From Aquila chrysaetos chrysaetos (taxonomy: Eukaryota > Chordata > Aves > Accipitriformes > Accipitridae): a DNA stretch of 64,000 nt. Location of the stretch: the NCBI RefSeq assembly GCF_900496995.4, contig NC_044006.1:22156214-22220213 (forward strand). Direction: 5' to 3'. The notes beneath the pieces were generated by a model. That model was given only the letters and a program-made list of their open reading frames with translations. It did not search any database and was not told the origin of the DNA. Of this stretch, positions 10,737-34,520 are shown in pieces (the first letter of the stretch is position 1; the number at the start of each line of letters is the position of its first letter). A program made the position numbers and the translations under genes.

Positions 10737-10836
10737 NNNNNNNNNNNNNNNNNNNNNNNNNNNNNNNNNNNNNNNNNNNNNNNNNNNNNNNNNNNNNNNN
10801 NNNNNNNNNNNNNNNNNNNNNNNNNNNNNNNNNNNN
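10737..10836. other. Assembly gap (100 N)
   Basis: There are exactly 100 N, the conventional placeholder for a gap of unknown size. The left edge is ordinary single-copy-like DNA. The right edge enters the tandem repeat at about +600 bp of its unit. The true left boundary of the array and an unknown number of units are therefore hidden here. Confidence 0.99.
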
Positions 10837-12609: not shown

Positions 12610-12643
<34 letters not shown>

Positions 12644-14480
12644 AGGGGGGGCCCCAAGGGAGGAAAAAAAAGGGTTGTGTCTATTTCTTTTTTTTTTATT
12701 TTTTTATTTTTTTGGGAAGAAGGGAGGGAGGTTGCAGGATTTTCGCCCAGGGGGGGCCAAGGAGGGGGGGGGGACAAAACCGGGGGGGTGGGCGGGGGGG
12801 GGGAACCAAAAAAAAAACGAAGGGCCCAGGGGGCTTTTTTAAAAAAACCGGCTGAAGGGCCCTTTTTTTTTCCAAAAAGGGGGGTCCAAAAAGGGGTATA
12901 AACGGGGAAAAGAAAAAGGGAAAAAAAAAAAGGAAACGATTGGGCCCAATGGGGGGGGGGGAAAAAACCCGGGGTTTTTTCTTTCCGGGAACGGGGGGGA
13001 CAAAAAAAAATAACAACTTATTGGGGGGGGCTTTTTTTAACTTGGGACCGGGAAGGGGAAAAGGGGGGAGGGGGGGGGAAAGGAGGAAAGGGGGGGGGGG
13101 GGGGTTGGTTTTTTGTTCATTTTTTTTTTTTTTTATTTTGTTTAGTTGTTTGTTTACCTTTTCTCTTTCTAGGGGGAGGGAGCGGGAGGGGAGAGGGGGG
13201 GAGTGGTTATTTTTCTTACCTTTTCAACCCACCATTTTTGTATTTGTTTTTTTTTTTTTTGTCTTGGGACAACCACCCGTGGGGTTTGTTTTTTTTTTTT
13301 TTTAACCTTTTTTCCGGATGTTTTTGTTTAAAAAACGGTTTTCAGAAACTTTTTTTTTCTTTCTTTTTGGGATGATTTTTTTTTCCTTGGGGGGGGGACA
13401 GGCCCCCTCAGGTTTTTTTACATTTGGTTTTTTACGGTGGAATTTAAAAAAAAAAAAACCACCCCCCAACCAAAAAAAACCCCCCCCCCAAAAGCCATTA
13501 AAAAAAAAAAAAAAAAAAAACCCCCGTGAACACCCCCCCACTTTTCGAGCCGGTTTTTTTTTTTTTTTTTTCAGTGGATTTTCAAGTGGGGAAAAATTCC
13601 CATTCAAAACTCGTTCTTTGGGGGGGCCCCAGGGGGGGGGGGGGGGAACCGGAAGGGCCAGGGGGGCCAGCAACCACCAGGGGCCCAAAACAGGGGCATG
13701 GTTTCAACGGGCTTGGCCCCACAAAAAAAACTCGGGAGGGAAAAAAAAAAAAAAAACACCAAGGAACCCCTTTTGGGGGGGGAGGGGCAATCCCCCCCCA
13801 CCCCACCGGGAAATGGAAAAAAAAAAAAAAAAGAAAGAAAAAAAAAAAAAAAAAGGGAAAGTTTTTTTTTTTTAGTTTTTGCCACGGGCCTTATGGGGGG
13901 GGGGGGGACCCCCAACCCCACCTGTCCCTACGCTTCCGGGGCCCGCAAATTGGGGCAACCGGGGTTCAGAAGGTTCTTTTTTTTTTTGGAAAGGGGGGGG
14001 CACATTTGATTTCTCTCGGAGGCACCTTTTTTTCCCAAGGGCTTCTTTTTGCCGTTTGTTTTTTTTTCCCCCAGGGGGTTTTTTTTTTTTCCCTTTTTTC
14101 GTTTTTTTGGGGGCTTTTGAAAGGAATAAAAGCAAGGGGGGAGGAGGGGGCAAAGGGCGTGGCCGGACCCCGGGGGGCCGCCCGGGGGTTTTTGCCGGAG
14201 GTCGGCCGTTTTCCCCCCACCGGTTCGTTTTCCAAAAAACCGGGTTTTTTTGGGTGTTGTTTTTAGGGGCCACCCCCCCAGAGGGGGGTGGGGCGGGCCC
14301 CAAAAAAGAGGAGGGGGAAATAGGAGGAATTTTTTCCGGAATACAAAGCTGTTTTTTCGGGAAAGGTGAAAAAAACCCCCAGCCAAAAAGGGCGGGAACT
14401 TTTTGCCGGCTTTTTTGCGGGGCTGTGGTGGTGGAAAAGGGGTGGGCGTTTGGTTTGGGAAGGTCCCCCGGGCCCCGGAG

Positions 14481-14921
14481 TGTGAAAGTGAAGGGGGGGT
14501 TTCTTGTTGCGTGTGTTTTTAGCCCGGGGTTTAACTTTGCGGGCCAAAAAAGGCTGTGATTTTGCGATGAAGGAAAGGAAGCAGGTTTTTTTTTTGGCGG
14601 CCCAGCGCGGGGGGGCGGAGGGGTGGGGAAGGGCAGGGGGCGGGGATGGGGCGGGGGGAAAATTTTTGGGGGGATTTTTTGGGATTGGGGATGGAGGATT
14701 GGGGGGAAAATCGGGAAAAGCACCCCCAGTATTTTGCCCGGTGGGGCGGGGGGGAAAATGGCGGTTTTTCTTTCGCCGTCCCCACCGGGGCCCACCGGGG
14801 GGAGGGGGTGGTGCGGGGGGGCGGGGGCGGTGTGAAGGGAAAAGGCGGGTGCGGGTGGTTTGGGAAAAAGGCCGGGGGGGGGGGGGGGCGGGGGGGGAGT
14901 GGGGGGGGGCGGGTGGGGGGG

Positions 14922-14953
<32 letters not shown>

Positions 14954-16433
14954 AGGGGGGGGACCCAAGAAGGCGGGGCGGGGCGGAGGGGGGGGGCCCG
15001 GGTTGTTTTTTTTTTTTTTCCTTTGCTTTTGGGGGCATTTTTTTTTTTTCTTTTTGCTTTGTGGGGGGGGCCCGGCGGGGGGGCCGGTTGTTTGTGGCCC
15101 GGCCCCCCCCCACCAAAACCCCCCCCCCAAAAATACCCCCTGGGGGGGGGGTGTCCCAAAACCCCGGTCCAGGGAGCTGAAAAAGCAGGGGGGGCGGGGG
15201 CCCCCCGGTTTCACCCCCACACAACCAACCTCGGTTTTTTAGGCGGCTTTTGGGAAGGGAGGGGGGGGGGGGAGGGGGGGGAAAACGGGGGCCGGGGGGG
15301 CCCTCGGGGGGGGACCCCCACCAAACCCCTTTTTTTCATTTTTTTTGTTTTTCCCCCCTCTTTCTTTGCCCCCTACCGGGGGTGAGGGGTCGCCCACGAC
15401 GGGGCGGGGGGAGCTTTTTTTTTTTCCACCCCCCCCCCTTTTCCTCTTTTTTTTCTTTGCTCCCCACCGGGGATTTTGTATTTTTCTTTAAATTATTAGA
15501 ACTTTTTTGTCCTTTCGTCCGTTTCGTTGTGGGGCCCAGGGGGGCCCCCTTTTTTTTTTTTCCCTTTGGCGGCCAAAACCACCCCCAAACCGGGGGGGGG
15601 GGGACCGGGGGGGGGAAGGGGGGGGAAAAAAAAAAAAACGGGGGAAAAATGGGGGAAAGGGGGGAAAAAAAAAATGGGCCCGGGGGGCCCGCGGGGCTCT
15701 GGAAAATGGGGGGCGGAGGGGGGGGCACCTTTCCTCTGCCCCCCGACCCTTTTTTTTGGGGTTTTGGTCCCTGTCCCACGGCAGTTTTGGCCTCTGGCCA
15801 GCACGGGGGCCTTTTTGGGGAGAATGGGTTCTTTTTGCCACCGGCCTTTTTGGGGCGGGTTGGGGGGGGATGGTTTTTTTTTTTGGAGTGGAGGGTTTGT
15901 TGTTTTTTTGATTTTGGCACCCCGAGGGGGGGGACCTTTTTGTTGTTTTTGGGCCCCAGCACCAACGGTTGTTTGGCGGGGGGGGCACAAGGGGGGGGCT
16001 TGGGGGGGGGCCTTTCCCCCTTTTCGTCCCCCTCGGAGGGAGGGAGGGGGAGGGAAAGGCTTTGGGGGGCGGGAAGTCCGGGGGGGGCCGGGGGGCCAGG
16101 GCGGGGGGCCCGGGGCTAGGGAAAGGCGTGCGGTTTTGTTTAAAAAAATTTAAAAACCCCTTGGGGTTGGGGGAAAGTTTAGGGGCCCCAGACGGAAGGA
16201 AGGGGGGCACCGCTTTGCTTTCTTTTGGGGCCCTTTCCCCTGGGGGGGGGGTTTTGGTATTTTTTTTTAATGAGTTGGGTTTAACGGGCCCCGTGTTTTT
16301 TTGTTTTTTTTTTGGGGGCAAAAAAAAAAGGGGGATTTTTTGTTTTTTTTATTCTTTGTTTGTTTGAGGGCCTCCGGGGGCCCCTTAATTTCTGTTGGGA
16401 CCTTTTTTTTTGTGCCGTTTTAATTTTTTTTTT

Positions 16434-16467
<34 letters not shown>

Positions 16468-19400
16468 TTTTAAACTTGGGTTTTTGTTTTCCCCCCCCCC
16501 CATATTTGTTTCTGATCTTTTGGAAATTGGCACACCAACGGGATTTTTTTTTTTTTTTTTGCTTTCCCTTTTTTTGGTTTTTTTGGGTTTTTTTTTGTTT
16601 TCCCTGTTTTTTAACTTACGATTTTGTTAGAGGGGGGCCACGGACCCCACGGGAAATTGTTTGTTTTTTTTTTTGTCCACCGCGTGCCATCGTTTTATTC
16701 GGCTTTGTTGGGGGGCAGCGGAGGGGGAGTTGGGGGGGATGGGGGGGCCCCCCCCCCTGGGAGGGGTGTTTGAAGGGGTGTCTGAGTTTTTTTTGTTTTT
16801 TTTGGGGGGGACCCCCCCCCCCCCACCCCCCCCCCACCGTTTCCCTGTTTTTTTGCTTTGGGAAAAAAAAAAAAACTTTTTGTTCGGGCCCTTTTGGGGT
16901 GTTTAGGGGGAGCTAGGGTTTTCAGTTTTTTTTTTTTAGGGGTTCTTTAGGAGGAAAAAAAAAAAAGGCTTTTTTATACCCCAAAAACACCATTTTTTTT
17001 TTCCGGGGGATTGGGCTTCTTTCTTTAAAACCCCCGGAACAAAAGGGGGGCCCTGGGGGGCCGGGGGGGGGGGGGGCATGTTTTGGACCCAAGGGGCGGG
17101 GGCCTTTTTTTTAGCAAGCCCCACCCCTCCCCAACGGCTTTTTTTTTTCTTTTGGCCCAACAACCAAAAGACCCGTTTTTTCCTTTTTTTTGGTTGCCCC
17201 CCACCCCAACAGGCGTGTTTTAATGTTTTTAAATTTGTATTTGACGGGGGGAAAATGGAAAAGGTTTTTCTTTTTTTGTAAACGGGGGAAAAATGGGGAT
17301 CCGGTTATTTTTTTTTTGTCGTCCGGTTTCGGGGGCACCCACGTTTTTTTTGTTTTTCGGCGGTTGGTTTGGAAAAGAGGAAAGGAGGGAAAGGGAAGGG
17401 AAAAAGCCGGCATTTGGCCCCCCCCAGGCAGGTTTTTTCTTGTTTTGTTTTTATTTTTTTTTTTTTTTTTACCCCCCCTTAAACAAAACCCAGGGAGTTG
17501 TGGGGCTTCGGAAAAAGGGGGCATTGACCATTTTTTCCTTCAGCCTTTTTTGCCTTTTTGGGGCCCTTAAGGTTTGGAAAAAAAAAAAAAAAAAAAAAAA
17601 CTCTTTTTTTTTTTTTTTTTTTTTTTTACTGTTTTCGGGAAGGGGGGAAAAGGAAAAAAAAAAAGGGGAAAACGAGAGGAGGGAGGAAGGAAGAAAAAAA
17701 GAGGGGGGGGGGGGGAAAAAAAACAAAACCACGGCAAAGGGGGGGGGAAGGGAGGGGAAAAGGAGGAGAAAAAAGTTTTTTTTGGCGAAAAGCCACAAGG
17801 GCAAAAAGGGAAGAAAAAAACAAGGAAGGAAAGAAAAGCGTCTGGGGTTTTTTGTCTTTTTTTGTATTTTGTTTTTTTTTTTTTTTTGTTCTTATTTATT
17901 TTGAGGAGGGGGGGGAGGGAGGAGGAAAGGGCCAGATTCCCCGGGCCCCCAGGCAGGGGAGGGGAAGGGGGGGGAGGGGGGGACCGGGGGGGGGGGCAAG
18001 AGGGGAACCCCCCCACCCCAAAAAAAAAACAAGGGGGGGGCAAGGGGCTTTAAAAACCGCTAGAGCCCCCTTTTCCCAAAAAACCAAAGGGGTTGGGGTG
18101 CCAAAGGCGGGGGGATTTTTTTTTGTTTTGTTTTGTACGGAGGGAAGGGGGGGAAAAAAAAAAAAAAAAAAAACAGGGGAAAAAAAAAAAAAACGGATTT
18201 GGGGGGGGGCCCCAAGGGGGAACCCGGTTTTTGTTGTGTTTTCCGGGGGGGACGGGGGGAACCAAAAAACTTTATTGGGCTTGTTTTTACCCTTGGGGGG
18301 GACGGAGGGGGGAGTTGGTTTTTGGTTTTTTTTTTGTTAGTCTTTGTATCGGGTATTTTTGTTTTTGCTTACTCCCACCACACACCCATCACCCCCATGT
18401 ATTGGGTTTTTTTTTCCTTTTTCTTTGGGGGGACACCACCGGTTTTTTTTTTTTAACCTTTTTGTTTCCCGGATGTTTTAAAAAAGTTTTTTGTTTTTTT
18501 TTTAAAAACGTTTTTCACAGGGGAAACCTTTCCCCCCCCCCCCCCCCTTTTCTGATTTTTTTTTTTTTTTGTTGTTTTCCGTGGACCAGCCCCCTTTTTT
18601 CCGTTCTTTTTGGTTAGTTGGTTTTTGACGGGGGGGGGATTGGGGGAAAAAAAAGAAAAAAAAACCCCAAAACCAAAAAAAACCCCAAGCAGGGGGGAAA
18701 GGGTGAAAAAAAAAAACAAAAAAAAAAAAAAAAAAAAACCCCCCGTTAAAACCCCCCCACTTTTCGGAAAACGGCGGTTTTTGTTTTTTTTTTTTTTTTT
18801 TGGGGTTTTTTGTTTTTCCAGTTGGAATTTTTTTTTTTTCCACAATTTTTTTTTTTATTCAACCTCGTACTTGGGCCCCAAGGGGTGGGGGGAACACCGA
18901 AGCCCAGGGAGGGCCCCAGCCCACACCCCAAAAACCGGGGACACAGGGACCCCCCACACCCAAGCCCACAGGGTGGGCCACCAATTTTTCAAACCGCTGG
19001 CAAAAACTTTTTTTTTTTGGAGGGAAAACCAGGGGGGGACTTTTTGTGGGGGTGGGAAGGGGGCAAAAAATTTTTTTAAATCCCCACCACGGGGGAAGAA
19101 AAAAAAAAAAAAAAAAAAAAAAGGGAAAGAAAGTGTGCGGGGGGGGGGGCTTGTATTTGGGGGGGGGGGGGGGGGGGGGGGGAGGAAACCCCCCCCCCAC
19201 CCACCCAAAAAACCTGGGGGTTCCTGGTTTTTTTTCACCCGCTCGCCCCCCGGCAAAATTTTTTGCCAATGGTTTTTTTTTTTGTTTTTAGAAAGGTAAG
19301 GAAGGGGGGGGGTCTTTTGTTTTTCCTTTTTTTTTTCCTTTTGGAAAAAAATTTTGGGGAACAAAGGCTTGGCATTATTCTGTCTTTTTTTTTCCCCGGG

Positions 19401-19785
19401 GGGAAGGGTGGGCCTTTCCCAGGGGGGCTCTGGGCCCCGGTTCTTTTTCCCCCCAGTTGCCTTGCGTTTGGGGGGGGCTTTTTTTTTTTTTTTGGGAAGG
19501 GAAAAAAAGGACAAAAAGGCCAGGGAGAGGGGGGGCCCCCCAGCACGGGCCCGCGTTCCGGGCGAGGTTGGTGTGTTTGGGGGGCAGTTCCCCCAAGGTC
19601 GTCCCACCCGCAACTTTGTTGGTAGGGGGGGGGGGGCCGGCCCAAGGAGGGAGGCCGGGCCCAAAGGAGGAGGGGATTTGAAGCCCAAAAGGGAAGGGGC
19701 CCCAAAAAAGAGATTTTTCCGGGGGAACAGCTTGGTTTTTTTTTGGTTCGGGAAGGGGGGGGGAAAAAAAAACCAAGGGCCAGCC

Positions 19786-19816
<31 letters not shown>

Positions 19817-19855
19817 TTTGCGGCTGTTTTGGATAAAAGGGTGGCGTTTGTTTGG
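14481..19855 (+). repeat. Corrupted array unit b (inflated to about 5.4 kb)
   Basis: The start is set where 'tgtgaaagtgaagg' corresponds to 'gtgtgaagtccgctgg' of the clean unit, and 'gcgatgaaggaa' follows at 14561. The end is set at the next equivalent point. The clean-unit landmarks occur in the right order between these points. Boundaries are approximate to tens of bases. Confidence 0.7.
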
Positions 19856-22800
19856 TGAAGGGTCCCGCCTGGGGGGGAGTTTTAAGTTTTTGGAGGGTTT
19901 TTTTTCTGTTTGCGTTTCCGGGGTTTAAATTTGTGCTGGCCCCCCAGGCTTTGTTGTGATTTTGCGATTTTGGGGGCGGAAGGGGAGGGGAAAGGGGGAA
20001 AGGGGGAAGGGTTTTGGCCGGGGCCTCCGGGGGGGGGGGGCGCCCCGGGGGGGCCCGGGGGAAGGGGGAGCAGGTGGGGGGAGGGGGGTGGGAAGCCCAG
20101 ACGGGATGGGGCGATTTTTATTTGGGGGTGATTTGGGGATGGGGGGAGGATGGGGGGGGGACTTTTTTTTTGGGGGAGGGGATTGGGAGGGGGGGGATTT
20201 TTTTGGGGGATTTCGGGAGCAAAGGGTTTTTTTCTTTTTTCGGGGGGGGGGGGGGCGGGGGGGGGGGAAAGGGCGGGGGATGGGGGGGAAAGGGGGGGGG
20301 CCGGCGGCGGGGGTCCGGGTTTTTTTTTTTTTTCCCCCCCGTGGGCCCGGGGAGAGAAGGGGGGGCGGTTTGGTGCGGGGCAGGTCGGGTGAAAGAAGGG
20401 ATTCGGGCGTTTTCTTGAAAGGAAAGCCGGGTGTTTGGGTTTTGGTGGGGGGGAAAAAAAAGAAAAAAAAAAAAAAGCGGGGGGGCGGGGGCGGGGGGGG
20501 GCCGGGGGGGGGGGGGCGGGGGGCGCGGGGGGCGGGGGGGGGGGGGCGAGGGGGGGCCGGGGGGGGGGGAAACCACCACAAGACAAGCGGGGCCCGGGCC
20601 AGACGGCCCCGCCGAGGGGGGGGGGTCGGTTTTTTGTTTGGGGTTGGCACGGGGGGGGGGGGACCCCGGGGTTGTTTTTTGGCCCCCCGCCCCACCCCCC
20701 CCCCCATTTTTTTTTTTTTTTTACCCCCCCTGGGGGGCGTTTCCCCCCCCAAAAAACCGGTCCCAGGAAAAGGCTAAAAAGCAGGGGCGGGCCCCCCCCC
20801 CTGGTTTGCCGCGGGGAAAGGGGGAGGGGAAAGGGCCTTTTCGGACCCCCCCCCCCCCCCAACCCCCCTGTTTTTTGCTTTTTCCCATTTTTCATTGGGC
20901 CCCTTTCCCCACGGGGGGGAAAGGGGGTGTTTTATTTTGGTTTGAGGGGTTGGGGGGTGGGGGCGGGCTTTTCCCCCCCCTTTCCCTCCCTCTTGGGCCC
21001 CCCCCCGGGGGTATTTTTTTTTCCCTTTTTTTTTCCCCTTCGTTCGTTTTTTTTTTTTTTTTTTTTTTTCGTGTTTTTTTTTGCCCAAAGGGGGGCATTC
21101 CTGTTGGGCGTCCCCAACCCGGGTGGGGGGGGGGGAACGGGGTGTTTGCGGGGGAGGAAAAAAAAAAGGGGGGGGGGGAAAAAAAAAAACGGGGGGAAAA
21201 TTTGGCGGGGAGGAAAAGGCCGGGAAATGGGGGGCGCACACCCCGCCGGGCGCCCCGGTGGCCCGCGGGGCTTGAAAAATGGGGGGCCGGAGGGGGGGGG
21301 GGGCGGCGGGAGGAAGCCACCCCCCACATCCCTTTTCTTTTTTTTTTTTGCCCCCCCCCCGGGCACTTTTTGGGGGTTCTTAATGTTAGTGTTTTTCTCT
21401 TTTTATTGAACGGGACATTTTGCAAAAAGGACCTATGGGGAGGGACTGGGGTCCTTTTTTTTTTTTTTTTGCCCAAACCATGGGAATTTTTTGGGGGGGG
21501 GGGGGTTTTGGGGGAGGGGGGAGAGGTTTTGGGACGTGTGGGGGTTTTTTGTGGTCGAGGAGGGGGGGCGGCCAGGGGGGCCCCTTTTGGTTTGGGGGGC
21601 CCCCCAGGGCCCACGGTGGCGGGGGAGGGGGGCAGGGGGGGGCTTTTGGGGGGGGGGGGCTCCCTTTTCGTCCCACCCCTCGGAAGGGGGGGGAAGCTTT
21701 TTGGGGGCGAGTCCGGCCCGGGGGGACGGGGGCAGGACCGGGGGGCTGGTTTGGGGGGAGGGCCCTCGTGCCGGGGTTGTTATTGTTTGTTAAAAAGTTT
21801 TTGTTTAATTGTATGTTTTTTTAATTGTGTATTTTGTGTTGTTTTACAAGTTAAATTGTTTTGGTTTGTAAATTTTTGTATTGTTAATTTTGTAAAGTTT
21901 TTTTTAAAAAAATGTAATGGTAATGTTTTGTAAAAAAAAGTTGTTTTTTTTTTTTTTAATTTTAATTGTTATTTGGTAAATGTTTTGTTTTTAAAAAAAC
22001 CTTTGGGTTTTTTGGGGAAAAAGAAAAAGGGAATTTATTTTGAGGGCCAGGGGAGAGAGGGCCCCACCGCCTTTTTTATTGCTTTTTGTTTTTCTGGGCC
22101 TTGTCCCCGCGGGGTGGGGTTAACGGGCGTCGGGGGGCAATGCAAAAAAGGGGGGATTTTTTTTTCTTGTTTTTTTTGAGGGGCTTTTCCGGGGGGGGCC
22201 CCCCCTTATTTGCCTTTTTTGGACCTTTTTGTGTTTTTGGCCCCCCCCGGCTTAGGTTTTAAAAATTGTTTAACTGGTCCCTTTTTTATTGTTCTTGCTC
22301 TTGGACAAAATTTTGGCACGGGGGGATTTTTTTTTTGCCTTTCTTTGGTTTTTTTTTGTTGTTTTTTTTTTTTCTCTTTGTTTTTCCCTTTCACTTCGCT
22401 TTTTTAAGGAACAGGACCTCCGGGGAAATGTTTCCCCACCCGTTTTGGGGGGGGTGGGGGGCTTTTTTCGTTTCTTTCGCTTGGGGCGGCAGGAGTTTTG
22501 CCCTTGGGCCCCCTGGAGTTTTTTTTTAAGTTTTTTGGACCCACAACCGTTTTTTCCCCCTGTTCTAGGGAAAAAAAAAAACTCCGGGGCCTTGGTTTAG
22601 GGAAGGGGGGCCTTTTTTTTTTTTTTTTTGTTTTTTTGTTTTGGTTTTTTTTTTTTTACAACATTTTTTTTTTTTCCGATTTGCCTTTTTTTTGGGGCTT
22701 AACAGGGGGGGGGGGGCCCCCCACCTGTTTTTGGGCTGACAGCGTTGGGCCCCACCCCCCAACGGGGCTTTTTTGCCTTGGCCCCACACCCCCAAAAAAA

Positions 22801-23837
22801 AACAAAAACGGGTTTTTTTTTGCTTTTTTTTGGTGTGGCCAAACCCCAGGGTGGTACGGGAAAAAAACAAAAGGAAAAAAAATGGGAATCCCGTGTTTTT
22901 TTTTGTTTTCGTTCGCCAAACGGTTTTCGCCACCGTTGGAGACTCTGGGGAGCCGGGTTTTTGGGGGATGTGTGTGGAGGGGGGGGAAACAAGCCGGGGG
23001 GGCTTTTGGCCCAGCGTTTTTTCTTTTTTTGTTTTAACCCCCCTTTGAAACCAAGGGGGGGGAAGGGTTTTTGGCTTGCTCGGGAAGGAAAAAAAAGGGG
23101 GACAAGTGCCCCCCGGCGGGGGCAAATTTTTTTCCCCTCGGGGGGGCCTTATTGCTTTTTATGTTGAAAAAAAAAAAACCCTTCTTTTTTACTTTTTGGT
23201 TTCGGGAAAAAAGGGGGGACGGAGAAAAAAAAAAAACCAAGGGGGCAGGGAGGAAAAAAAAGTTGGTTTTGTCTTATTTTATGGAAGGGGGGGGGAGGGA
23301 CAACGGTTTTTTTTTTGGGCAGGGAATCCGCCCCCAGGCCCAAGGAGGAACCCCCCCCAAAAAAACGGAAGGGCAGGCTTTTTTTCAACCCGCATTGGGC
23401 TTTGGGCTTGGAAAAAAGTGGGGGGGGGGGGTGGGGCCTTTTCAAAGGTTGGGCCAAAAAAAGGGATTTTTTTTTGTAACGGAAACGGATTGGGGGGCCC
23501 CAAAGGGGGGGGGGGGACCCCGGGGTTATTTTTTTTTAGCGGGGAACCCACCCAAAACCTATGTGGGCTAAACCCTTTGTTTGGGGGGGGGACCCGGAGG
23601 AGGGTTTTGGGGGGGTTTTTTTTTTTTTTTTCTTTAAAACTCCCAACCACCATTTTGTATTTTGGTTTTTCTTTTTGTCTGGACCCCAAACCACGGTTTT
23701 TTGTGTTAAAACCCTTTTTTTTTCGATTTGTTTTTTTACGGTCTCCAGAAACAAAAAACTTTTTTTCTTTCTGGGATTTTTTTCTGAATTGGACCAAGCC
23801 CCCCCCTTCGTTGTATGGTTTTTTACGGGGATTATTT

Positions 23838-23871
<34 letters not shown>

Positions 23872-24850
23872 CCCAAACCCAAAAAAAAAAACCCCCAGCA
23901 TAAAAAAAAAAAAAACCCCCGTTTTAACCCCCCCAAAACTTCGAGCCCCGGTTTTTTTTTTTTCCAGGTTTTGTTGCATTCCATTCCCAATTTTTTCCAA
24001 ACTGCGTTCGTTGGGGGGGCCCAGGAAAACCGAGGGGGGCCCAGGGGGGCGGGCCCCAAAGTCACGGGGTGGGGCAATGTTCAACGGGGGGGGCTTTTTT
24101 TTTTCTTTTTTTTTGGCCCCAAAAAAATTGGTCACCAAACTTTCTTTGAGGCGAAAAAAAAAACAAAACAAGGGCAAAACTTTGGGAGGGGTGCAATCCA
24201 CCGGGAAAAAAAAGGGGGAAAAGGGAAAAAGGAAAATGAAGTTTTGGGGCGGGGGCCTTTGATTTTTTTTTGGGGGGACCCCCCCAACCCCCTGTCTTTT
24301 ACGGCTTTTCCGGGGGGCCCCCCGCCAATTTTGGGCCCAAGGTTAGAAGTTCCTTTTGGGGGGGAAAAAAAGCCTTTTTTGATTCTTCTCGGGGAGGGCC
24401 ACTTTTCCAGTTGGCTTGCCGGGGTTTTTTTTTTTCTCCCAGGTCCCCTCCGTTTGGGCTTTTTGAAGAAAAAAGGCCAGGGGGGAGGGCCACCGCCCGG
24501 GCGGTCACGTCGGAAGGTGGGGCCGTTTTTTTTTTTTCTTTTTTTTTCCCCCCAGTTTTTTTGTTTTCCCCGTTTTTCAACCCGTGGGTAGGGGGGGGGG
24601 GGGGCCGGCCCCCAGAAGGGGGGGGCCGGGGGCCCAAAAGAGATTGCAAAAAAAGGGAGGAACCAAAAGAGGATTTTTTTTTTTTTTTGCGGCCCAAAAG
24701 GAGATTTTCGGGGGGGACAACAGCTTTGTTTTTTGTTGTGTTCGGAAGAAGGGGGAAGGGGAAAAAAAAAAACCCAGCCAAGGGCCGGGGACTTGCGCGT
24801 GGGGACAATGTTTTTGGAAAAAAAAGTGGTTGCGTTAGTTTGTTGAAATG
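19856..24850 (+). repeat. Corrupted array unit c (inflated to about 5.0 kb)
   Basis: It begins at the degraded 'gtgaag' landmark and runs to the first clean 'tgaagtccgctggag' at 24851. Quality improves sharply over the last few tens of bases, around 24840. The CRTAP-like segment of this unit lies in about 24330-24660 but is too damaged to translate. Confidence 0.7.
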
Positions 24851-25165
24851 TGAAGTCCGCTGGAGTAAGTGAGGTCTGTGCGTTCGGGGTTACTGCGGCA
24901 GTGTGATGCGATGAAGGAAGGGCAGGTGTCGGCCAGCGCGGGGCGAGGGGAGCGGGGGGATGGGGATGGGGATGGGGATGGGGAGGGGATGGGGAGGGGA
25001 TCGGGAGCAGTCTCGGGGGCGGGGTGGGGGGCGGGGGAAGGCGGTCCGTCCCCGGGCCGGGGAGGGTGTGCGGCGGCGTGAAGGAAAGCGGGTGGTGGGG
25101 AAAGCGGGCGGGGGGGCGGGGCGGGGGGACCAAGAGCGGCGCCGAGGCCGGTGTGGCGGGGGCCG

Positions 25166-25179
25166 GTGTGGCGCCACAC
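25166..25179. repeat. 14-bp perfect palindrome in each array unit
   Basis: GTGTGGCGCCACAC is its own reverse complement. It is unchanged at 27165-27178, 29203-29216, 31220-31233 and 33214-33227. It could be a binding site for a dimeric factor, but it may be chance in GC-rich DNA copied with the unit. Confidence 0.85.
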
Positions 25180-26618
25180 TACCCGGGGGGTCCACGTCAG
25201 AGTAAAGCAGGGGCGGGCCCGGTTTAGCGCTGGGAAGGGAGACGGCCTCGGACACCCTTTTCTTTTCCCTCTGCCCCTCCCCGGGGAGGGGTGGGGGCGG
25301 CTTCCCCCTCCTCTCTTGCCCGGGATTTCCTCGTCCTCCTTCGCCAGCCTCCTGGCGCACGACGGGGGAAAGGAAGGGAACGGGAAATGGGAAATGGGCC
25401 GCGGGGCTGGAAATGGGCGGAAGAGCCACCTCCTCTGCCCCCGCCTTTGGGTCCTGTCCCGGCCTGCAGCCTGGGAGATGGGTCTTGCACCTGCTTGGGG
25501 CGGGTGGAGGTGTGCGAGGCCTTTGTGCCCAGCCACGGTGGCGGGGAGGCAGGGCTGGGGGGGGCTCCCTTCGTCCCCTCGGAGGAGCTGGGGCGAGTCG
25601 CCGGGCCGGGGCCGGCTGGAGCGTGGGTGTAAACCTTGGGTGGGAAGATAGGCAGAGAGAGGCACCGCTGCTCTGCCTCCCGGGGGTTACGGCGTGCAAA
25701 GGGGATTTTCTTGTTTTGAGGGCTCCGGGCCTTATCTTGACCTTTGCGCTAATACTGTCCCTATTGTTCTGAATGGCACGGGATGCTCTTTGGGTTTGTT
25801 CCCTACTAGCTAGAGCCCGGAATTCCACGGCGTGCCTCGTCTTCGCTTTGGCGCGAGTGCTGGCCTGAGTTTTTGACCACCGTTTCCCTTCTAGAAAACT
25901 CGCCTTGGTAGAGCTATACACATTCCGATGCTTAACAGCCCTGTGGGCCTGACAGCGTGGCCACCACGGCTTCTTGGCACCAAACCACGTCTTTTGGTGC
26001 ACAGGCGTACGAAAATGGATCCGTGTCGTCGCACGTGTTCGCGTGGAGAGGAAGCGGCTGCCAGCGTCTACCCTAACAGGAGTTGCTTCGGAAAGGCATC
26101 TCGCCTGCTAGTGAACTCTACTGTCGGAAAGACGAGAAACAGGCAAGAGAAAGTTGTCTTATTTATGAGAGAGGAGGTGCAGATCGCCAGGCAGAGACAA
26201 ACGAAGGCAGGCTAACCGCTGAGCCTCAAAGGTGGCCAAAGGGATACGGAAACGATGGCCAAGGGACCCGTCCGGACAACTATGGCTACCTGGACGGAGG
26301 AGTGGTTCTTACTCACACATGTATGTTCTTCTGACACACGGTTACCTTTCGATGTTAACGTCAGAACTCTCTGATTTTCTGACAGCCCTCGTTTATGGTA
26401 CGGGGATTAAAAAAAAACCCCAACCAAAACCCAGCATAAAAAAACCCCGTAACCCCCACTTCGAGCGGTTTTCAGTGCATCCAATCAACTCGTCTTGGCC
26501 CAGACCGAGCAGGGGGCAGCACGGGCATGTCACGCTGCAAACTGAGGAACAGGACTTTGGGAGGCAATCCCACGGAAAAAGGGAAGTGCGCTTATGGGAC
26601 ACCTGTCCTACGCTCGCC

Positions 26619-26789
26619 CGCAATGGCAAGGTAGAAGTCTTTGAAAGCTTTGATCTCTCGGGAGCCTTCCCAGGCTGCCGTCCAGTCCTCGTGGGCTTTG
26701 AAGAAAGCAGGGAGAGGCAGCCGCGCGTCCGAGGTGGCCGTTCCCCAGTCGTCACCGTTGTAGGCCGCCAGAGGCCGGCCAAAGAGATT
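26619..26789 (-). pseudogene. CRTAP-like exon fragment, copy 1
   Basis: Reading leftwards, 57 codons give AAYNGDDWG near the start and EGSREIKAFKDFYLAIA at the end. From memory of the family, this is collinear without gaps to the CRTAP segment with AYNGENW..LPDFFKA..EGSREIKDFKDFYLSIA. CRTAP (originally CASP) is the non-catalytic partner of prolyl 3-hydroxylase 1 and cyclophilin B in collagen 3-hydroxylation in the endoplasmic reticulum. The copy is broken: two Cys conserved in CRTAP are Trp here. Just upstream, ESL-F is recovered only in another frame, which implies a small indel. After LAIA the similarity fades and a stop follows at 26592. No other CRTAP exon is recognised in the unit. It is best read as a decayed exon copy. 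Confidence 0.75.
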
Positions 26790-26845
26790 CCGACAAGCTG
26801 TCGGGAAGGAAACCCAGCAGCGACTGCGCTGTGGAAAGGTGCGTG

Positions 26846-28872
26846 TGAAGTCCGCTGGAGTAAGTGAGGTCTGTGCGTTCGGGGTTACTGCGGCAGCTGT
26901 GATGCGATGAAGGAAGAGCAGGTGGCGGCCAGCGCGGGGCGAGGGGAGCGGCGGGATGGGGATGGGGATGGGGATGGGGATGGGGATGGGGATCGGGAGC
27001 AGTCTCGGGGGCGGGTGGGTGGGGGGGCGGGGGAAGGCGGTCCGTCCCCGGGCCGGGGAGGGTGTGCGGCGGCGTGAAGGAAAGCGGGTGGTGGGGAAAG
27101 CGGGGCGGGGGGCGGGGCGGGGGGGGACCAAGAGCGGCGCCGAGGCCGGTGCTGGCGGGGGCCGGTGTGGCGCCACACTACCCCTGGGGGGTCCACCGTC
27201 AGAGCTAAGCAGGGGCGGCCCCGGTTAGCGCTGGGAAGGGAGACGGCCTCGGACACCCCTTTTTCTTTTCCCTCTGCCCCTCCCCGGGGAGGGGTGGGGG
27301 CGGCTTCCCCCCTCCTCTCTGCCCGGGATTTCCTCGTCGTCGTGCCAGCCTCCTGGCGCACGACGGGGGAAACGGGAGGAAACGGGGAGGAGGAGGAAGG
27401 GGAAATGGGGAGGAGGAGGGAAATGGGCCGCGGGGCTGGAAATGGGCGGAGGGCCACCTCCTCTGCCCCCGCCTTTGGGTCCTGTCCCGGCCTGCAGCCT
27501 GGGAGATGGGTCTTGCACCTGCTTGGGGCGGGTGGAGGTGTGCGAGGCCTTTGTGCCCAGCCACGGTGGCGGGGGGCAGGGGCTGGGGGGGCTCCCTTCG
27601 TCCCCTCGGAGGAGCTGGGGCGAGTCGCCGGGCCGGGGCCGGCTGGAGCGTGCGGTGTAAACCTTGGGTGGGAAGATAGGCAGAGAGAGGCACCGCTGCT
27701 CTGCCTCCCGGGGTTACGGCGTGCAAAGGGGATTTTCTTGTTTTGAGGGCTCCGGGCCTTATCTTGACCTTTGCGCTAATACTGTCCCTATTGTTCTGAA
27801 TGGCACGGGATGCTCTTTGGGTTTGTTCCCTACTAGCTAGAGCCCGGAATTCCACGCGTGCCTCGTCTTCGCTTTGGCGCGAGTGCTGGCCTGAGTTTTT
27901 TGACCACCGTTTCCCTTCTAGAAAACTCGCCTTGGTAGAGCTATACACATTCCGATGCTTAACAGCCCTGTGGGCCTGACAGCGTGGCCACCACGGCTTC
28001 TTGGCACAAACCACGTCTTTTGGTGCACAGGCGTACGAAAATGGATCCGTGTCGTCGCACGTGTTCGCGTGGAGAGGAAGCGGCTGCCAGCGTCTACCCT
28101 AACAGGAGTTGCTTCGGAAAGGCATCTCGCCTGCTAGTGAAACTCTACTGTCGGAAAGACGAGAAACAGGCAAGAGAAAGTTGTCTTATTTATGAGAGAG
28201 GAGGTGCAGATCGCCAGGCAGAGACAAACGAAGGCAGGCTAACCGCTGAGCCTCAAAGGTGGCCAAAGGGATACGGAAACGATGGCCAAGGGACCCGTCC
28301 GGACAACTATGGCTACCTGGACGGAGGAGTGGTTCTTACTCACACATGTATGTTCTTCTGACACACGGTTACCTTTCGATGTTAACGTCAGAACTCTCTG
28401 ATTTTCTGACAGCCCTCGTTTATGGTACGGGGATTAAAAAAAAACCCCAACCAAAACCCAGCATAAAAAAACCCCGTAACCCCCACTTCGAGCGGTTTTC
28501 AGTGCATCCAATCAACTCGTCTTGGCCCAGACCGAGCAGGGGGCAGCACGGGCATGTCACGCTGCAAACTGAGGAACAGGACTTTGGGAGGCAATCCCAC
28601 GGAAAAAGGGAAGTGCGCTTATGGGACACCTTTCCTACGCTCGCCCGCAATGGCAAGGTAGAAGTCTTTGAAAGCTTTGATCTCTCGGGAGCCTTCCCAG
28701 GCTGCCGTCCAGTCCTCGTGGGCTTTGAAGAAAGCAGGGAGAGGCAGCCGCGCGTCCGAGGTGGCCGTTCCCCAGTCGTCACCGTTGTAGGCCGCCAGAG
28801 GCCGGCCAAAGAGATTCCGACAAGCTGTCGGGAAGGAAACCCAGCAGCGACTGCGCTGTGGAAAGGTGCGTG
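26846..28872 (+). repeat. Array unit 2 (2027 bp)
   Basis: This is a complete unit with six consecutive GATGGG steps near 26955. A distinctive purine-rich minisatellite (ggaggaggagg type) near 27370-27425 replaces the regular GGGGAAAY repeats of units 3-5. Confidence 0.95.
28646..28816 (-). pseudogene. CRTAP-like exon fragment, copy 2
   Basis: This is the same 57-codon segment as in unit 1, with the same frame and the same Trp-for-Cys changes. The following bases read 'acctttcc' (+ strand) in place of 'acctgtcc' in unit 1. It lies 2027 bp from copy 1. Confidence 0.75.
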
Positions 28873-28981
28873 TGAAGTCCGCTGGAGTAAGTGAGGTCTG
28901 TGCGTTCCGGGGTTACTGCGGCAGCTGTGATGCGATGAAGGAAGAGCAGGTGTCGGCCAGCGCGGGGCGAGGGGAGCGGCG

Positions 28982-29028
28982 GGATGGGGATGGGGATGGG
29001 GATGGGGATGGGGATGGGGATGGGGATC
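28982..29028 (+). repeat. (GGGGAT)n minisatellite inside units
   Basis: There are seven consecutive GATGGG steps here. The equivalent tracts have six steps (about 26955), seven (about 31001) and five (about 33013), and an interrupted version near 24958. Four or more G4 runs within a short distance make it a candidate G-quadruplex on the + strand. Confidence 0.9.
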
Positions 29029-29402
29029 GGGAGCAGTCTCGGGGGCGGGTGGGTGGGTGGGCGGGGGAAGGCGGTCCGTCCCCGGGCCGGGGAGGGTGTG
29101 CGGCGGCGTGAAGGAAAGCGGGTGGTGGGGGAAAGCGGGGCGGGGGGCGGGGCGGGGCGGGGCGACCAAGAGCGGCGCCGAGGCCGGTGCTGGCGGGGGC
29201 CGGTGTGGCGCCACACTACCCCTGGGGGGTCCACCGTCAGAGCTAAGCAGGGGCGGCCCCGGTTAGCGCTGGGAAGGGAGACGGCCTCGGACACCCCTTT
29301 TTCTTTTCCCTCTGCCCCTCCCCGGGGAGGGGTGGGGGCGGCTTCCCCCCTCCTCTCTTGCCCGGGATTTCCTCGTCGTCGTGCCAGCCTCCTGGCGCAC
29401 GA

Positions 29403-29450
29403 CGGGGAAACGGGGAAACGGGGAAACGGGGAAATGGGGAAATGGGCCGC
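29403..29450 (+). repeat. 8-bp (GGGGAAAY)n minisatellite inside units
   Basis: Five steps of GGGGAAAC or GGGGAAAT follow 'gcacgac' in unit 3. There are four in unit 4 (31423-31455) and seven in unit 5 (33417-33473), and irregular purine-rich versions in units 1 and 2. The tract accounts for much of the unit length variation and is also G-quadruplex prone. Confidence 0.9.
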
Positions 29451-30664
29451 GGGGCTGGAAATGGGCGGAGGGCCACCTCCTCTGCCCCCGCCTTTGGGTC
29501 CTGTCCCGGCCTGCAGCCTGGGAGATGGGTCTTGCACCTGCTTGGGGCGGGTGGAGGTGTGCGAGGCCTTTGTGCCCAGCCACGGTGGCGGGGGGCAGGG
29601 GCTGGGGGGGCTCCCTTCGTCCCCTCGGAGGAGCTGGGGCGAGTCGCCGGGCCGGGGCCGGCTGGAGCGTGCGGTGTAAACCTTGGGTGGGAAGATAGGC
29701 AGAGAGAGGCACCGCTGCTCTGCCTCCCGGGGTTACGGCGTGCAAAGGGGATTTTCTTGTTTTGAGGGCTCCGGGCCTTATCTTGACCTTTGCGCTAATA
29801 CTGTCCCTATTGTTCTGAATGGCACGGGATGCTCTTTGGGTTTGTTCCCTACTCGCTAGAGCCCGGAATTCCACCCGTGCCTCGTCTTCGCTTTGGCGCG
29901 AGTGCTGGCCTGAGTTTTTTGACCACCGTTTCCCTTCTAGAAAACTCGCCTTGGTAGAGCTATACACATTCCGATGCTTAACAGCCCTGTGGGCCTGACA
30001 GCGTGGCCACCACGGCTTCTTGGCACAAACCACGTCTTTTGGTGCACAGGCGTACGAAAATGGATCCGTGTCGTCGCACGTGTTCGCGTGGAGAGGAAGC
30101 GGCTGCCAGCGTCTACCCTAACAGGAGTTGCTTCGGAAAGGCATCTCGCCTGCTAGTGAAACTCTACTGTCGGAAAGACGAGAAACAGGCAAGAGAAAGT
30201 TGTCTTATTTATGAGAGAGGAGGTGCAGATCGCCAGGCAGAGACAAACGAAGGCAGGCTAACCGCTGAGCCTCAAAGGTGGCCAAAGGGATACGGAAACG
30301 ATGGCCAAGGGACCCGTCCGGACAACTATGGCTACCTGGACGGAGGAGTGGTTCTTACTCACACATGTATGTTCTTCTGACACACGGTTACCTTTCGATG
30401 TTAACGTCAGAACTCTCTGATTTTCTGACAGCCCTCGTTTATGGTACGGGGATTAAAAAAAAACCCCAACCAAAACCCAGCATAAAAAAACCCCGTAACC
30501 CCCACTTCGAGCGGTTTTCAGTGCATCCAATCAACTCGTCTTGGCCCAGACCGAGCAGGGGGCAGCACGGGCATGTCACGCTGCAAACTGAGGAACAGGA
30601 CTTTGGGAGGCAATCCCACGGAAAAAGGGAAGTGCGCTTATGGGACACCTTTCCTACACTCGCC

Positions 30665-30835
30665 CGCAATGGCAAGGTAGAAGTCTTTGAAAGCTTTGAT
30701 CTCTCGGGAGCCTTCCCAGGCTGCCGTCCAGTCCTCGTGGGCTTTGAAGAAAGCAGGGAGAGGCAGCCGCGCGTCCGAGGTGGCCGTTCCCCAGTCGTCA
30801 CCGTTGTAGGCCGCCAGAGGCCGGCCAAAGAGATT
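30665..30835 (-). pseudogene. CRTAP-like exon fragment, copy 3
   Basis: Same segment, 2019 bp from copy 2. A private 'ctacact' for 'ctacgct' lies just outside the homologous block (near 30655). Confidence 0.75.
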
Positions 30836-30891
30836 CCGACAAGCTGTCGGGAAGGAAACCCAGCAGCGACTGCGCTGTGGAAAGGTGCGTG

Positions 30892-32903
30892 TGAAGTCCG
30901 CTGGAGTAAGTGAGGTCTGTGCGTTCCGGGGTTACTGCGGCAGCTGTGATGCGATGAAGGAAGAGCAGGTGTCGGCCAGCGCGGGGCGAGGGGAGCGGCG
31001 GGATGGGGATGGGGATGGGGATGGGGATGGGGATGGGGATGGGGATCGGGAGCAGTCTCGGGGGCGGGTGGGTGGGTGGGCGGGGGAAGGCGGTCCGTCC
31101 CCGGGCCGGGGAGGGTGTGCGGCGGCGTGAAGGAAAGCGGGTGGTGGGGAAAGCGGGGCGGGGGCGGGGCGGGGCGGGGGGACCAAGAGCGGCGCCGAGG
31201 CCGGTGCTGGCGGGGGCCGGTGTGGCGCCACACTACCCCTGGGGGGTCCACTGTCAGAGCTAAGCAGGGGCGGCCCCGGTTAGCGCTGGGAAGGGAGACG
31301 GCCTCGGACACCCCTTTTTCTTTTCCCTCTGCCCCTCCCCGGGGAGGGGTGGGGGCGGCTTCCCCCCTCCTCTCTTGCCCGGGATTTCCTCGTCCTCCTT
31401 CGCCAGCCTCCTGGCGCACGACGGGGAAATGGGGAAACGGGGAAATGGGGAAATGGGCCGCGGGGCTGGAAATGGGCGGAGGGCCACCTCCTCTGCCCCC
31501 GCCTTTGGGTCCTGTCCCGGCCTGCAGCCTGGGAGATGGGTCTTGCACCTGCTTGGGGCGGGTGGAGGTGTGCGAGGCCTTTGTGCCCAGCCACGGTGGC
31601 GGGGGGCAGGGGCTGGGGGGGCTCCCTTCGTCCCCTCGGAGGAGCTGGGGCGAGTCGCCGGGCCGGGGCCGGCTGGAGCGTGCGGTGTAAACCTTGGGTG
31701 GGAAGATAGGCAGAGAGAGGCACCGCTGCTCTGCCTCCCGGGGTTACGGCGTGCAAAGGGGATTTTCTTGTTTTGAGGGCTCCGGGCCTTATCTTGACCT
31801 TTGCGCTAATACTGTCCCTATTGTTCTGAATGGCACGGGATGCTCTTTGGGTTTGTTCCCTACTAGCTAGAGCCCGGAATTCCACGCGTGCCTCGTCTTC
31901 GCTTTGGCGCGAGTGCTGGCCTGAGTTTTTTGACCACCGTTTCCCTTCTAGAAAACTCGCCTTGGTAGAGCTATACACATTCCGATGCTTAACAGCCCTG
32001 TGGGCCTGACAGCCTGGCCACCACGGCTTCTTGGCACAAACCACGTCTTTTGGTGCACAGGCGTACGAAAATGGATCCGTGTCGTCGCACGTGTTCGCGT
32101 GGAGAGGAAGCGGCTGCCAGCGTCTACCCTAACAGGAGTTGCTTCGGAAAGGCATCTCGCCTGCTAGTGAAACTCTACTGTCGGAAAGACGAGAAACAGG
32201 CAGGAGAAAGTTGTCTTATTTATGAGAGAGGAGGTGCAGATCGCCAGGCAGAGACAAACGAAGGCAGGCTAACCGCTGAGCCTCAAAGGTGGCCAAAGGG
32301 ATACGGAAGCGATGGCCAAGGGACCCGTCCGGACAACTATGGCTACCTGGACGGAGGAGTGGTTCTTACTCACACATGTATGTTCTTCTGACACACGGTT
32401 ACCTTTCGATGTTAACGTCAGAACTCTCTGATTTTCTGACAGCCCTCGTTTATGGTACGGGGATTAAAAAAAAACCCCAACCAAAACCCAGCATAAAAAA
32501 ACCCCGTAACCCCCCACTTCGAGCGGTTTTCAGTGCATCCAATCAACTCGTCTTGGCCCAGACCGAGCAGGGGGCAGCACGGGCATGTCACGCTGCAAAC
32601 TGAGGAACAGGACTTTGGGAGGCAATCCCACGGAAAAAGGGAAGTGCGCTTATGGGACACCTGTCCTACGCTCGCCCGCAATGGCAAGGTAGAAGTCTTT
32701 GAAAGCTTTGATCTCTCGGGAGCCTTCCCAGGCTGCCGTCCAGTCCTCGTGGGCTTTGAAGAAAGCAGGGAGAGGCAGCCGCGCGTCCGAGGTGGCCGTT
32801 CCCCAGTCGTCACCGTTGTAGGCCGCCAGAGGCCGGCCAAAGAGATTCCGACAAGCTGTCGGGAAGGAAACCCAGCAGCGACTGCGCTGTGGAAAGGTGC
32901 GTG
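30892..32903 (+). repeat. Array unit 4 (2012 bp)
   Basis: This is a complete unit with seven GATGGG steps near 31001 and four GGGGAAAY steps near 31423. Private substitutions include 'gacagcctggcc' (near 32010), 'caggcaggagaaag' (near 32200) and 'ggaagcgatgg' (near 32306). Confidence 0.95.
32677..32847 (-). pseudogene. CRTAP-like exon fragment, copy 4
   Basis: Same segment, 2012 bp from copy 3. It is the copy closest to GLB1, about 1.0 kb from the right end of the array. It points away from GLB1, as expected for the divergent neighbour CRTAP. Confidence 0.75.
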
Positions 32904-33700
32904 TGAAGTCCGCTGGAGTAAGTGAGGTCTGTGCGTTCCGGGGTTACTGCGGCAGCTGTGATGCGATGAAGGAAGAGCAGGTGGCGGCCAGCGCGGGGCG
33001 AGGGGAGCGGCGGGATGGGGATGGGGATGGGGATGGGGATGGGGATCGGGAGCAGTCTCGGGGGCGGGTGGGTGGGTGGGCGGGGGAAGGCGGTCCGTCC
33101 CCGGGCCGGGGAGGGTGTGCGGCGGCGTGAAGGAAAGCGGGTGGTGGGGAAAGCGGGGCGGGGCGGGGCGGGGGGACCAAGAGCGGCGCCGAGGCCGGTG
33201 CTGGCGGGGGCCGGTGTGGCGCCACACTACCCCTGGGGGGTCCACTGTCAGAGCTAAGCAGGGGCGGCCCCGGTTAGCGCTGGGAAGGGAGACGGCCTCG
33301 GACACCCCTTTTTCTTTTCCCTCTGCCCCTCCCCGGGGAGGGGTGGGGGCGGCTTCCCCCCTCCTCTCTTGCCCGGGATTTCCTCGTCCTCCTTCGCCAG
33401 CCTCCTGGCGCACGACGGGGAAATGGGGAAACGGGGAAATGGGGAAATGGGGAAACGGGGAAATGGGGAAATGGGCCGCGGGGCTGGAAATGGGCGGAGG
33501 GCCACCTCCTCTGCCCCCGCCTTTGGGTCCTGTCCCGGCCTGCAGCCTGGGAGATGGGTCTTGCACCTGCTTGGGGCGGGTGGAGGTGTGCGAGGCCTTT
33601 GTGCCCAGCCACGGTGGCGGGGGGCAGGGGCTGGGGCGGCTCCCTTCGTCCCCTCGGAGGAGCTGGGGCGAGTCGCCGGGCCGGGGCCGGCTGGAGCGTG
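32904..33700 (+). repeat. Array unit 5, truncated (~797 bp)
   Basis: It follows the other units from 'tgaagtccgc' through 'ggctggagcgtg' and departs at 33701, where the others continue 'cggtgtaaacc'. It has five GATGGG steps and seven GGGGAAAY steps. It contains only the GC-rich half, so it has no CRTAP-like segment. Its end is the right boundary of the array and abuts the GLB1 promoter. Confidence 0.93.
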
Positions 33701-34520
33701 GGATGTTCTGAGAGGCGAGGGTAGGAGGAGGCACGCAGGATCCTGACGGCAGACGCTGAATCCGTCGTTGTCGCTTGGACGGAAGGATGTCCGTGCTTCG
33801 CCCGGCCGTTTCCCGTGGAGGGTGTGGCTTAGCGGGGCAGGCCCGCCCCGCTCCCTCCCCCGGTCCAGCTGACGCCGCCCTGTCATGGGACGCTTGGCTG
33901 AGTCGCGTCGGTTGCCGTCAGTTATGCTGCGTCTCTTGTTCCCGCTGGCCGGCTTGGCGGCCGTTTTCCGGGCGGAGGTGAGTCCCGTCGCTTCTTCCTC
34001 CCCTCAGGTCCCCGTTTCGCTGCGTTACCGCCGGGAGGGGCTGTGGCGCCCGGCCCCGTGGCTGTTGGGGATGGCTCCGAGCTGTGAGGGATGCGGGGTC
34101 CGCCGGGTGCCAGCGGCTCCCGGCTGGCAGGGGGTGTCCTCCCGCCCCAGGAGGAAGACGATTAATTTCGTTCCTTTTATAATACGTTAGCGGTTTGTGG
34201 TTCATGGGGGGGAGGGGGGTGGCGTTTTAGTAGTCGCGGGGCCGCGCCTGGCGGGGTGGAGCTGCCGGGGTAGGTGCGGTGAGCGGGCGGGGGGGGGGGT
34301 GCGGCTCGTTCTCCCGAGCAGGCCTGCCCGCTCCCGGCCGCGGCGACCGCCTTGCTGCGCCCTAGGTGTTTCGTACTGGGGAAGGGTTGGCCGTGCCCGC
34401 CCTCGCCCCCCGTGGGGTGAGCGCTGCCGCCGGCTTGAGAGGGGTGATCGTCGGGGTCGCTGGCCGCTGAACCTGCCGGCCGAAGCGGTGGTGGCACCTG
34501 TCCGCCTTCCAGCCTTCAGA
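33701..34520 (+). promoter_or_regulatory. CpG-rich promoter region of GLB1 (and probably TMPPE)
   Basis: This unique GC- and CpG-rich DNA begins directly where the tandem array ends and surrounds GLB1 exon 1. It contains GC-box-like strings (GGGGCAGGCCCGCCCCGCTC near 33834, CCCTCCCCCGG near 33853) and no clear TATA box, typical of a housekeeping CpG-island promoter. In human, as I recall, TMPPE transcripts start with the shared GLB1 5' exon, so this may drive both genes. Transcription start sites cannot be set from sequence alone. Confidence 0.75.
33924..33977 (+). CDS. GLB1: GLB1 exon 1 (signal peptide)
   Basis: It encodes [18 protein letters not shown], a hydrophobic secretory signal, and ends in phase 0 at GCGGAG|gtgagt. 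An in-frame ATG at 33885 (G at -3, G at +4) would add 13 residues (MGRLAESRRLPSV) before the hydrophobic core. I prefer 33924 because it gives a conventional signal peptide, but 33885 has the stronger initiation context and is a real alternative. Confidence 0.85.

Follow-up and report, generated by a model that had tools for sequence, protein, structure and literature searches.

How a tandem array of 2-kb units came to lie beside the GLB1 gene, and from what source, is the question raised by a stretch of 64,000 nucleotides of the Aquila chrysaetos chrysaetos genome (contig NC_044006.1, denoted C3; C3:22156214-22220213), referred to here as the window. The array is probably a gene-derived macrosatellite, made in place from a partial duplication of CRTAP, the gene for cartilage-associated protein, and shaped by biased gene conversion. 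A preliminary description of the window had proposed local amplification of part of CRTAP. This proposal is supported, as CRTAP lies on the same contig as the array and not on another chromosome, its introns match the unit on both sides of the exon, and 12 of the 15 listed genome matches are local; the source is amended to a segment that runs from the promoter to intron 6.

The composition of the unit was determined by a BLAST comparison of positions 24849-28645 (nearly two units) with an 80-kb region containing CRTAP. Read in the sense direction of the gene, the unit comprises the promoter, the end of intron 2 with exon 3 and the start of intron 3, a further piece of intron 3, a piece of intron 4, and the exon 6 donor with the following intron (Table 1). 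The last gene-body piece is followed by the promoter of the next unit, and the order and strand of the pieces are those of CRTAP. Exons 1, 2, 4, 5 and 6 and much of the intronic sequence have no BLAST match in the unit. The exon that each unit had been described as carrying is present, but it makes up a small part of the CRTAP-derived sequence, and the unit is far more than that exon: a promoter-to-intron 6 segment with most exons deleted. On both sides of exon 3, the unit matches the introns of the CRTAP gene of the same genome. By BLAST, the promoter part of the unit u1 is 92% identical to CRTAP; over the aligned bases alone the identity is 96%, with 142 gap columns. Between the array and the CRTAP locus, the identity of aligned bases is 96–99.4% in the promoter and 77–85% in the gene body. 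An insert of 315 bp separates the two intron 3 pieces. Nothing else in the genome matches it at E ≤ 0.001, it has no clear counterpart in CRTAP and no inverted end repeats that could be seen, and it is perhaps intron 3 sequence that CRTAP has lost. Besides this insert, approximately 40 bp near the promoter joint fall outside the assigned CRTAP pieces.

The exon relic was identified by its translation on the − strand, AAYNGDDWG..LPAFFKA..EGSREIKAFKDFYLAIA, which is free of stop codons. In a phmmer search against PDB chains, the only distinct sequence at E ≤ 1 was CRTAP (8k0e_B, E 3.1e-15 over 60 residues), and the same chain was retrieved with a longer frame (E 2.9e-14). The exon frame also matches the Pfam family TPR_leprecan (E 1.2e-4), at 22 bits and so below the curated cut-off of 27 bits; a Pfam search with ten long open frames from the unit detected no other family at E ≤ 0.1. 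A tblastn search with human CRTAP exon 3 as the query aligned 57 ungapped codons at 60% identity in all four clean copies. Copies 2–4 are 100% identical to copy 1 across 230, 228 and 230 bases, respectively. The reported 57 codons per unit, collinear with CRTAP without gaps on the − strand, are thus confirmed in the four clean units by translation, tblastn and phmmer, and on these matches a chance likeness to CRTAP is excluded.

The repeat had been placed at 26619..32847, where it is confirmed; the array as assembled is longer (Table 1), and this extent is cut on the left by a gap of 100 undetermined bases (N). With three complete clean units of 2012–2027 bp, near-identical and arranged head to tail at kilobase scale, the array has the structure of a macrosatellite. 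The clean units together span 24849-33706, and the five of them, whole or partial, differ pairwise by 0.4–3.1% substitutions. Unit positions 1-298 contain no column with a substitution; as substitutions are few elsewhere too, outside the G-rich minisatellites present within the units, no exon-specific conservation is read from this. More than half of the assembled array, adjoining the N gap, is a block inflated by long, false-looking homopolymers. This block was matched to the unit by homopolymer-compressed BLAST, with no match for one shuffled control. Its run-collapsed pieces follow the unit order from approximately unit position 839 through three more unit starts, which bear the exon and lie at approximately 13942, at approximately 19.5 kb (seen only in part) and at 24318; the figure of about 2.7 units for the block is an estimate from the unit positions matched.

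The CRTAP gene extends from C3:21678213 (start codon, ATG) to approximately C3:21689670 (end of exon 6) on the + strand. The matches to exons 1–6 are open, and canonical junctions can be read where they end or a few bases away; as exon 7 did not turn up in the region searched, the gene can be called intact for exons 1–6 only. SUSD5 lies downstream on the − strand, in the same order as in human. The human GLB1 and CRTAP genes are neighbours in divergent orientation, approximately 16 kb apart. Here, the two start codons are approximately 512 kb apart and both genes point in the same direction. The earlier statement that the strand agrees with the human arrangement accordingly holds for the array and fails for CRTAP itself, which lies about 0.5 Mb away in the opposite orientation.

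A unit fragment upstream of the CRTAP promoter (C3:21667969-21668297) matches u1 at 327 of 329 bases (99.4%) and u0 at 98.5%, and derives, with divergence, from introns 4 and 6 of CRTAP. Between this fragment and the promoter lies a long terminal repeat (LTR) element of approximately 9.1 kb, with CCGG on both sides. When the element is discounted, the fragment and the promoter flank join as an uninterrupted unit, as in the array. Such a junction, in which the end of a truncated copy abuts the promoter of the complete gene, is the expected trace of a head-to-tail duplication. The LTR element (C3:21668298-21677441) is young, its two LTRs differing by 3 substitutions in 606 aligned bases. To the left of C3:21667969, the sequence resembles another LTR end by eye, with no second copy in the pieces fetched.

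Because the array has the orientation beside GLB1 that CRTAP has in human, it is CRTAP with its fragment that appears to have been moved, and an inversion or a scaffold error would have separated the two. That a wrongly oriented scaffold, and not an inversion, accounts for the separation is a serious possibility, although we put it somewhat short of an even chance. The left side of the array meets the N gap, the unit fragment beside CRTAP reaches 99.4% identity with the array, which implies recent adjacency, and CRTAP and SUSD5 keep the human order. Against such an error, N is absent within 48 kb to the left of the fragment, so that flipping a simple contig would not rejoin fragment and array. 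The case for an inversion uses CRTAP, SUSD5, the array and GLB1 only; queries for FBXL2, UBP1, CLASP2 and PDCD6IP gave no convincing match in C3:21640001-21720000 or C3:22116214-22166949.

The difference between the gene and the array runs almost entirely one way. Base changes were counted over five gene-body segments (912 aligned sites, with up to 14 unit bases counted twice at overlaps), taking CRTAP as the reference. From CRTAP to the unit, 138 of 531 A/T sites have changed to G/C and 7 of 381 G/C sites to A/T (binomial p 1e-32), or 0.26 and 0.018 per site. The change is strand-symmetric (A>G 42, T>C 47, A>C 26, T>G 23). In the same segments, 52 CpGs were gained in the unit, 1 was lost and 8 were kept, and the ratio of observed to expected CpG (CpG o/e) of the gene-body parts is 0.66–1.09 in the unit and 0.00–0.34 in CRTAP. 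Decay of CpG in CRTAP does not explain the 138:7 ratio, because the 138 changes include 49 transversions and 35 CpG-type transitions. Control repeat pairs, for which the direction is arbitrary, gave 162:144 at 80% identity of aligned bases and 29:17 at 96%. These controls are direct repeats upstream of CRTAP (C3:21641492-21655345), of approximately 1.4 kb (94%) and approximately 1.9 kb (78%). The promoter part, already GC-rich, has no excess of A/T to G/C change (3 versus 13).

GC-biased gene conversion in a promoter array is the best explanation of this one-way change. We think it rather improbable that the change reflects instead a loss of methylation, or selection for GC or for G-quadruplexes. 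The high CpG o/e of the units relative to CRTAP is as in unmethylated DNA, and the units contain G-rich minisatellites; but a loss of methylation stops CpG decay without producing A/T to G/C change, transversions included, at 0.26 against 0.018, and selection is unlikely to act on a dead gene body.

The exon had been called decayed, and comparison with CRTAP of the same genome bears this out. Both native splice sites are lost (acceptor AG>GG, donor GT>GC), and CTAAC, a CxxxC cysteine motif of CRTAP, has become WTAAW, with both cysteines replaced by tryptophan. Of the 57 residues, 40 are kept; at the 17 that differ, the human residue agrees with CRTAP in 14, with neither in 3 and with the unit in none. 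The relic differs from CRTAP at 32 of 171 bases, where intronic rates lead one to expect 30.2. With its splice sites and the CxxxC cysteines lost and its differences accumulated at the intronic rate, the exon is to be regarded as dead, and the array as making no protein.

That the exon is still in use, for example spliced into a lineage-specific transcript, is highly improbable. None of the four clean copies has a stop within the 57 codons, and the plain ratio of non-synonymous to synonymous divergence from CRTAP (dN/dS) is 0.42 (dN 0.169, dS 0.398). Beside the lost splice sites and cysteines and the intron-like divergence, simulations under the base-change spectrum of the array yielded a stop codon in 21% of copies, compared with 68% under unbiased change, leaving 79% and 32% open, respectively. 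An open frame is weak evidence of function when most simulated copies stay open. The number of non-synonymous differences is likewise ordinary under this spectrum (20 seen, 22.7 expected).

It is similarly hard to credit a mobile or foreign origin of the array, in which a satellite picked up a single CRTAP exon and came to rest next to GLB1. The 315-bp stretch without a source in the genome would suit such an origin, but nearly everything else in the unit can be aligned with the CRTAP locus, on one strand and in the order of the gene. A search of the genome (1.2337 Gb in 144 contigs) with u1 outside the exon returned at least 15 matches, five in the array, seven at the CRTAP locus, one on contig C37 and two on contig C10, and a search with the exon returned at least five, four in the array and one at CRTAP exon 3; the counts are lower bounds, and simple repeats and very frequent words were excluded from the search. 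Among the matches listed, full or long copies of the unit occur at this array and the CRTAP locus only, and no such dispersed copies were seen. Composition and match distribution thus largely refute a foreign satellite. The match on C37 (C37:19881638-19881795, 69%, E 4e-6) is weak and falls to the G-rich promoter part of the unit. An amplified processed pseudogene or retrocopy of CRTAP, which might have accounted for the absence of most exons and of long stretches of the gene, is rejected with near certainty, as the unit holds promoter sequence, has intron on both sides of exon 3 and represents introns 2, 3 and 4 and the intron after exon 6.

The origin in place from CRTAP probably proceeded as follows. 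A head-to-tail partial duplication, beginning approximately 0.8 kb upstream of the start codon and reaching into the intron that follows exon 6, would have left a truncated copy lying between the full gene and GLB1. This copy would then have lost most exons, been reduced to approximately 2 kb and been amplified by unequal exchange. In effect, CRTAP would be the last unit of the array, so that its promoter would have gone on exchanging sequence with the units (96–99.4% identity, against 77–85% in the gene body). Repeated meiotic conversion would have driven the unit towards G and C, since every unit contains a CpG-rich promoter and bird recombination is enriched at CpG islands. Recombination in the zebra finch is reported to be located at CpG islands with a conversion bias of 59% (PMC12047795), and flycatcher pedigrees have the same GC-biased conversion (PMC4878770). 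A later inversion, or a scaffold error, would have parted CRTAP from the array. The array may, more tentatively, be a self-amplifying hotspot: in a genome that directs its meiotic exchange to CpG islands, the CpG-island promoter, duplicated with a small part of its gene, would make each unit invite exchange, and exchange both expands the array and raises its G/C and CpG content. A better hotspot would result, and the living CRTAP promoter would be dragged into concerted evolution; we hold this to be possible but doubtful.

Several points weigh against conversion in an array made from a dead partial copy. The dN/dS of 0.42 is constraint-like when taken alone. In the simulations, 7.6 synonymous differences were expected and 12 were seen, giving a low non-synonymous share (p 0.045), a weak hint of possible constraint early in the life of the copy. 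The A/T to G/C change does not fall off significantly away from the promoter (p 0.21), a result that is neutral towards conversion in a promoter array. The polarity of intronic change was taken from the resemblance of CRTAP to its surroundings (GC 0.43, CpG o/e 0.27) rather than from an outgroup. The units are homogenised and share their promoter with CRTAP, but the number of conversion or crossover events observed is zero. Finally, this bird genome is presumed, from its gene content and its size of 1.23 Gb, to be without PRDM9.

Each clean unit also contains a stretch resembling positions 50-100 of 5S ribosomal RNA (rRNA), the internal control region (Table 1). In u1, it scores 70, against a highest score of 34 in 500 shuffles. 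The stretch lies on the strand opposite to CRTAP, facing GLB1, has a T-run after it and falls in the part aligned to the CRTAP promoter, in whose sequence it can be read too. No full-length 5S rRNA was found by Rfam in the window (gathering score), in one unit (E ≤ 1) or in a 181-bp stretch (E ≤ 10). No Rfam family at all reached the gathering score in the window, and the low-threshold matches look like GC-hairpin noise. The 5S rRNA array of the genome lies at C10:27562329-27610438 (44 of 47 scored matches), and the two C10 matches of the unit search sit inside two of its genes. The most likely reading is that an old insert derived from 5S sits in the CRTAP promoter and would have been amplified along with it. 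On the GLB1 side, the array ends 178 bp upstream of the inferred GLB1 start codon; later GLB1 exons, located by homology, lie at 45880-62181 on the + strand.

Table 1. Features of the CRTAP-derived array and its surroundings (window coordinates; C3 coordinates refer to the contig)
Feature	Position	Strand	Basis or remark
Whole array as assembled	10837..33706	unstranded	left end at the 100-N gap 10737-10836, right end before GLB1
Error-inflated array continuation	10837..24848	unstranded	long false-looking homopolymers; ~2.7 units, three unit starts
Clean unit u0	24849..26618	unstranded	without unit positions 1-225
Clean unit u1	26619..28645	unstranded	2027 bp
Clean unit u2	28646..30664	unstranded	2019 bp
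Clean unit u3	30665..32676	unstranded	2012 bp
Clean partial unit u4	32677..33706	unstranded	1030 bp, stops within the promoter part
CRTAP exon 3 relic, copy 1	26619..26789	−	57 codons; translation, phmmer, tblastn
CRTAP exon 3 relic, copy 2	28646..28816	−	tblastn
CRTAP exon 3 relic, copy 3	30665..30835	−	tblastn
CRTAP exon 3 relic, copy 4	32677..32847	−	tblastn
CRTAP promoter part of u1	26928..27714	−	C3:21677439-21678174, to ~40 bp before the CRTAP ATG
Intron 2 end, exon 3, intron 3 start	26584..26889	−	C3:21682782-21683089, 79%
Insert relative to CRTAP intron 3	26269..26583	unstranded	315 bp, between two intron 3 pieces
CRTAP intron 3 piece	26092..26268	−	C3:21683091-21683283, 78% by BLAST
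CRTAP intron 4 piece	25904..26098	−	C3:21685948-21686140, 83%
CRTAP exon 6 donor into next intron	25796..25905	−	C3:21689669-21689772, 73%
Second piece, intron after CRTAP exon 6	25668..25800	−	C3:21689832-21689963, 82%; stops at the duplication junction
5S rRNA-like stretch	27203..27253	+	43/51 bases identical to one 5S gene of the same genome; also at 25205, 29241, 31258, 33252
Inferred GLB1 first coding exon	33885..33977	+	ATG, 31 signal-peptide-like codons, GT donor; placed by position, not homology

The array can be set beside several known systems. D4Z4 (DUX4) similarly consists of kilobase-scale tandem units with promoter and gene sequence, GC-rich and homogenised; unlike in D4Z4, the parent gene here survives on the contig, the coding part is dead and the parent promoter is among the homogenised sequence. 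GC-biased conversion in multicopy families such as histone genes and ribosomal DNA likewise goes with exchange between copies and changes A/T to G/C equally on both strands; here the source sequence is plain intron and exon, the contig also carries a paralogue that was never amplified and can serve as a reference, and the ratio of 138:7 is extreme. The mo-2 pseudoautosomal repeat of the mouse is a tandem repeat linked to meiotic exchange, but it is not known to be a promoter array, and meiotic breaks in the CRTAP array are only inferred. Among bird tandem repeats, LL2R of chicken lampbrush chromosome 2 is comparable and is reported to be transcribed in oocytes (PMC7151628). The LL2R literature consulted gives neither its sequence nor its gene content, and its identity with the array is a lead only. 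A CRTAP-derived array is undescribed among the literature titles and abstract openings listed, a search that did not extend to subscription papers.

Biased conversion is mostly deduced from averages over whole genomes. In this case, one contig carries the same introns and exon in two forms, once in single copy and once amplified, and as the two differ almost only in A/T versus G/C, the pair would provide a direct measure of the bias. Since stop codons are A/T-rich, a dead exon can keep an open frame under such change. The array makes it testable whether, in species that lack PRDM9, arrays of promoters act as hotspots of meiotic exchange, and CRTAP becomes a gene whose promoter appears to be tied to a satellite.

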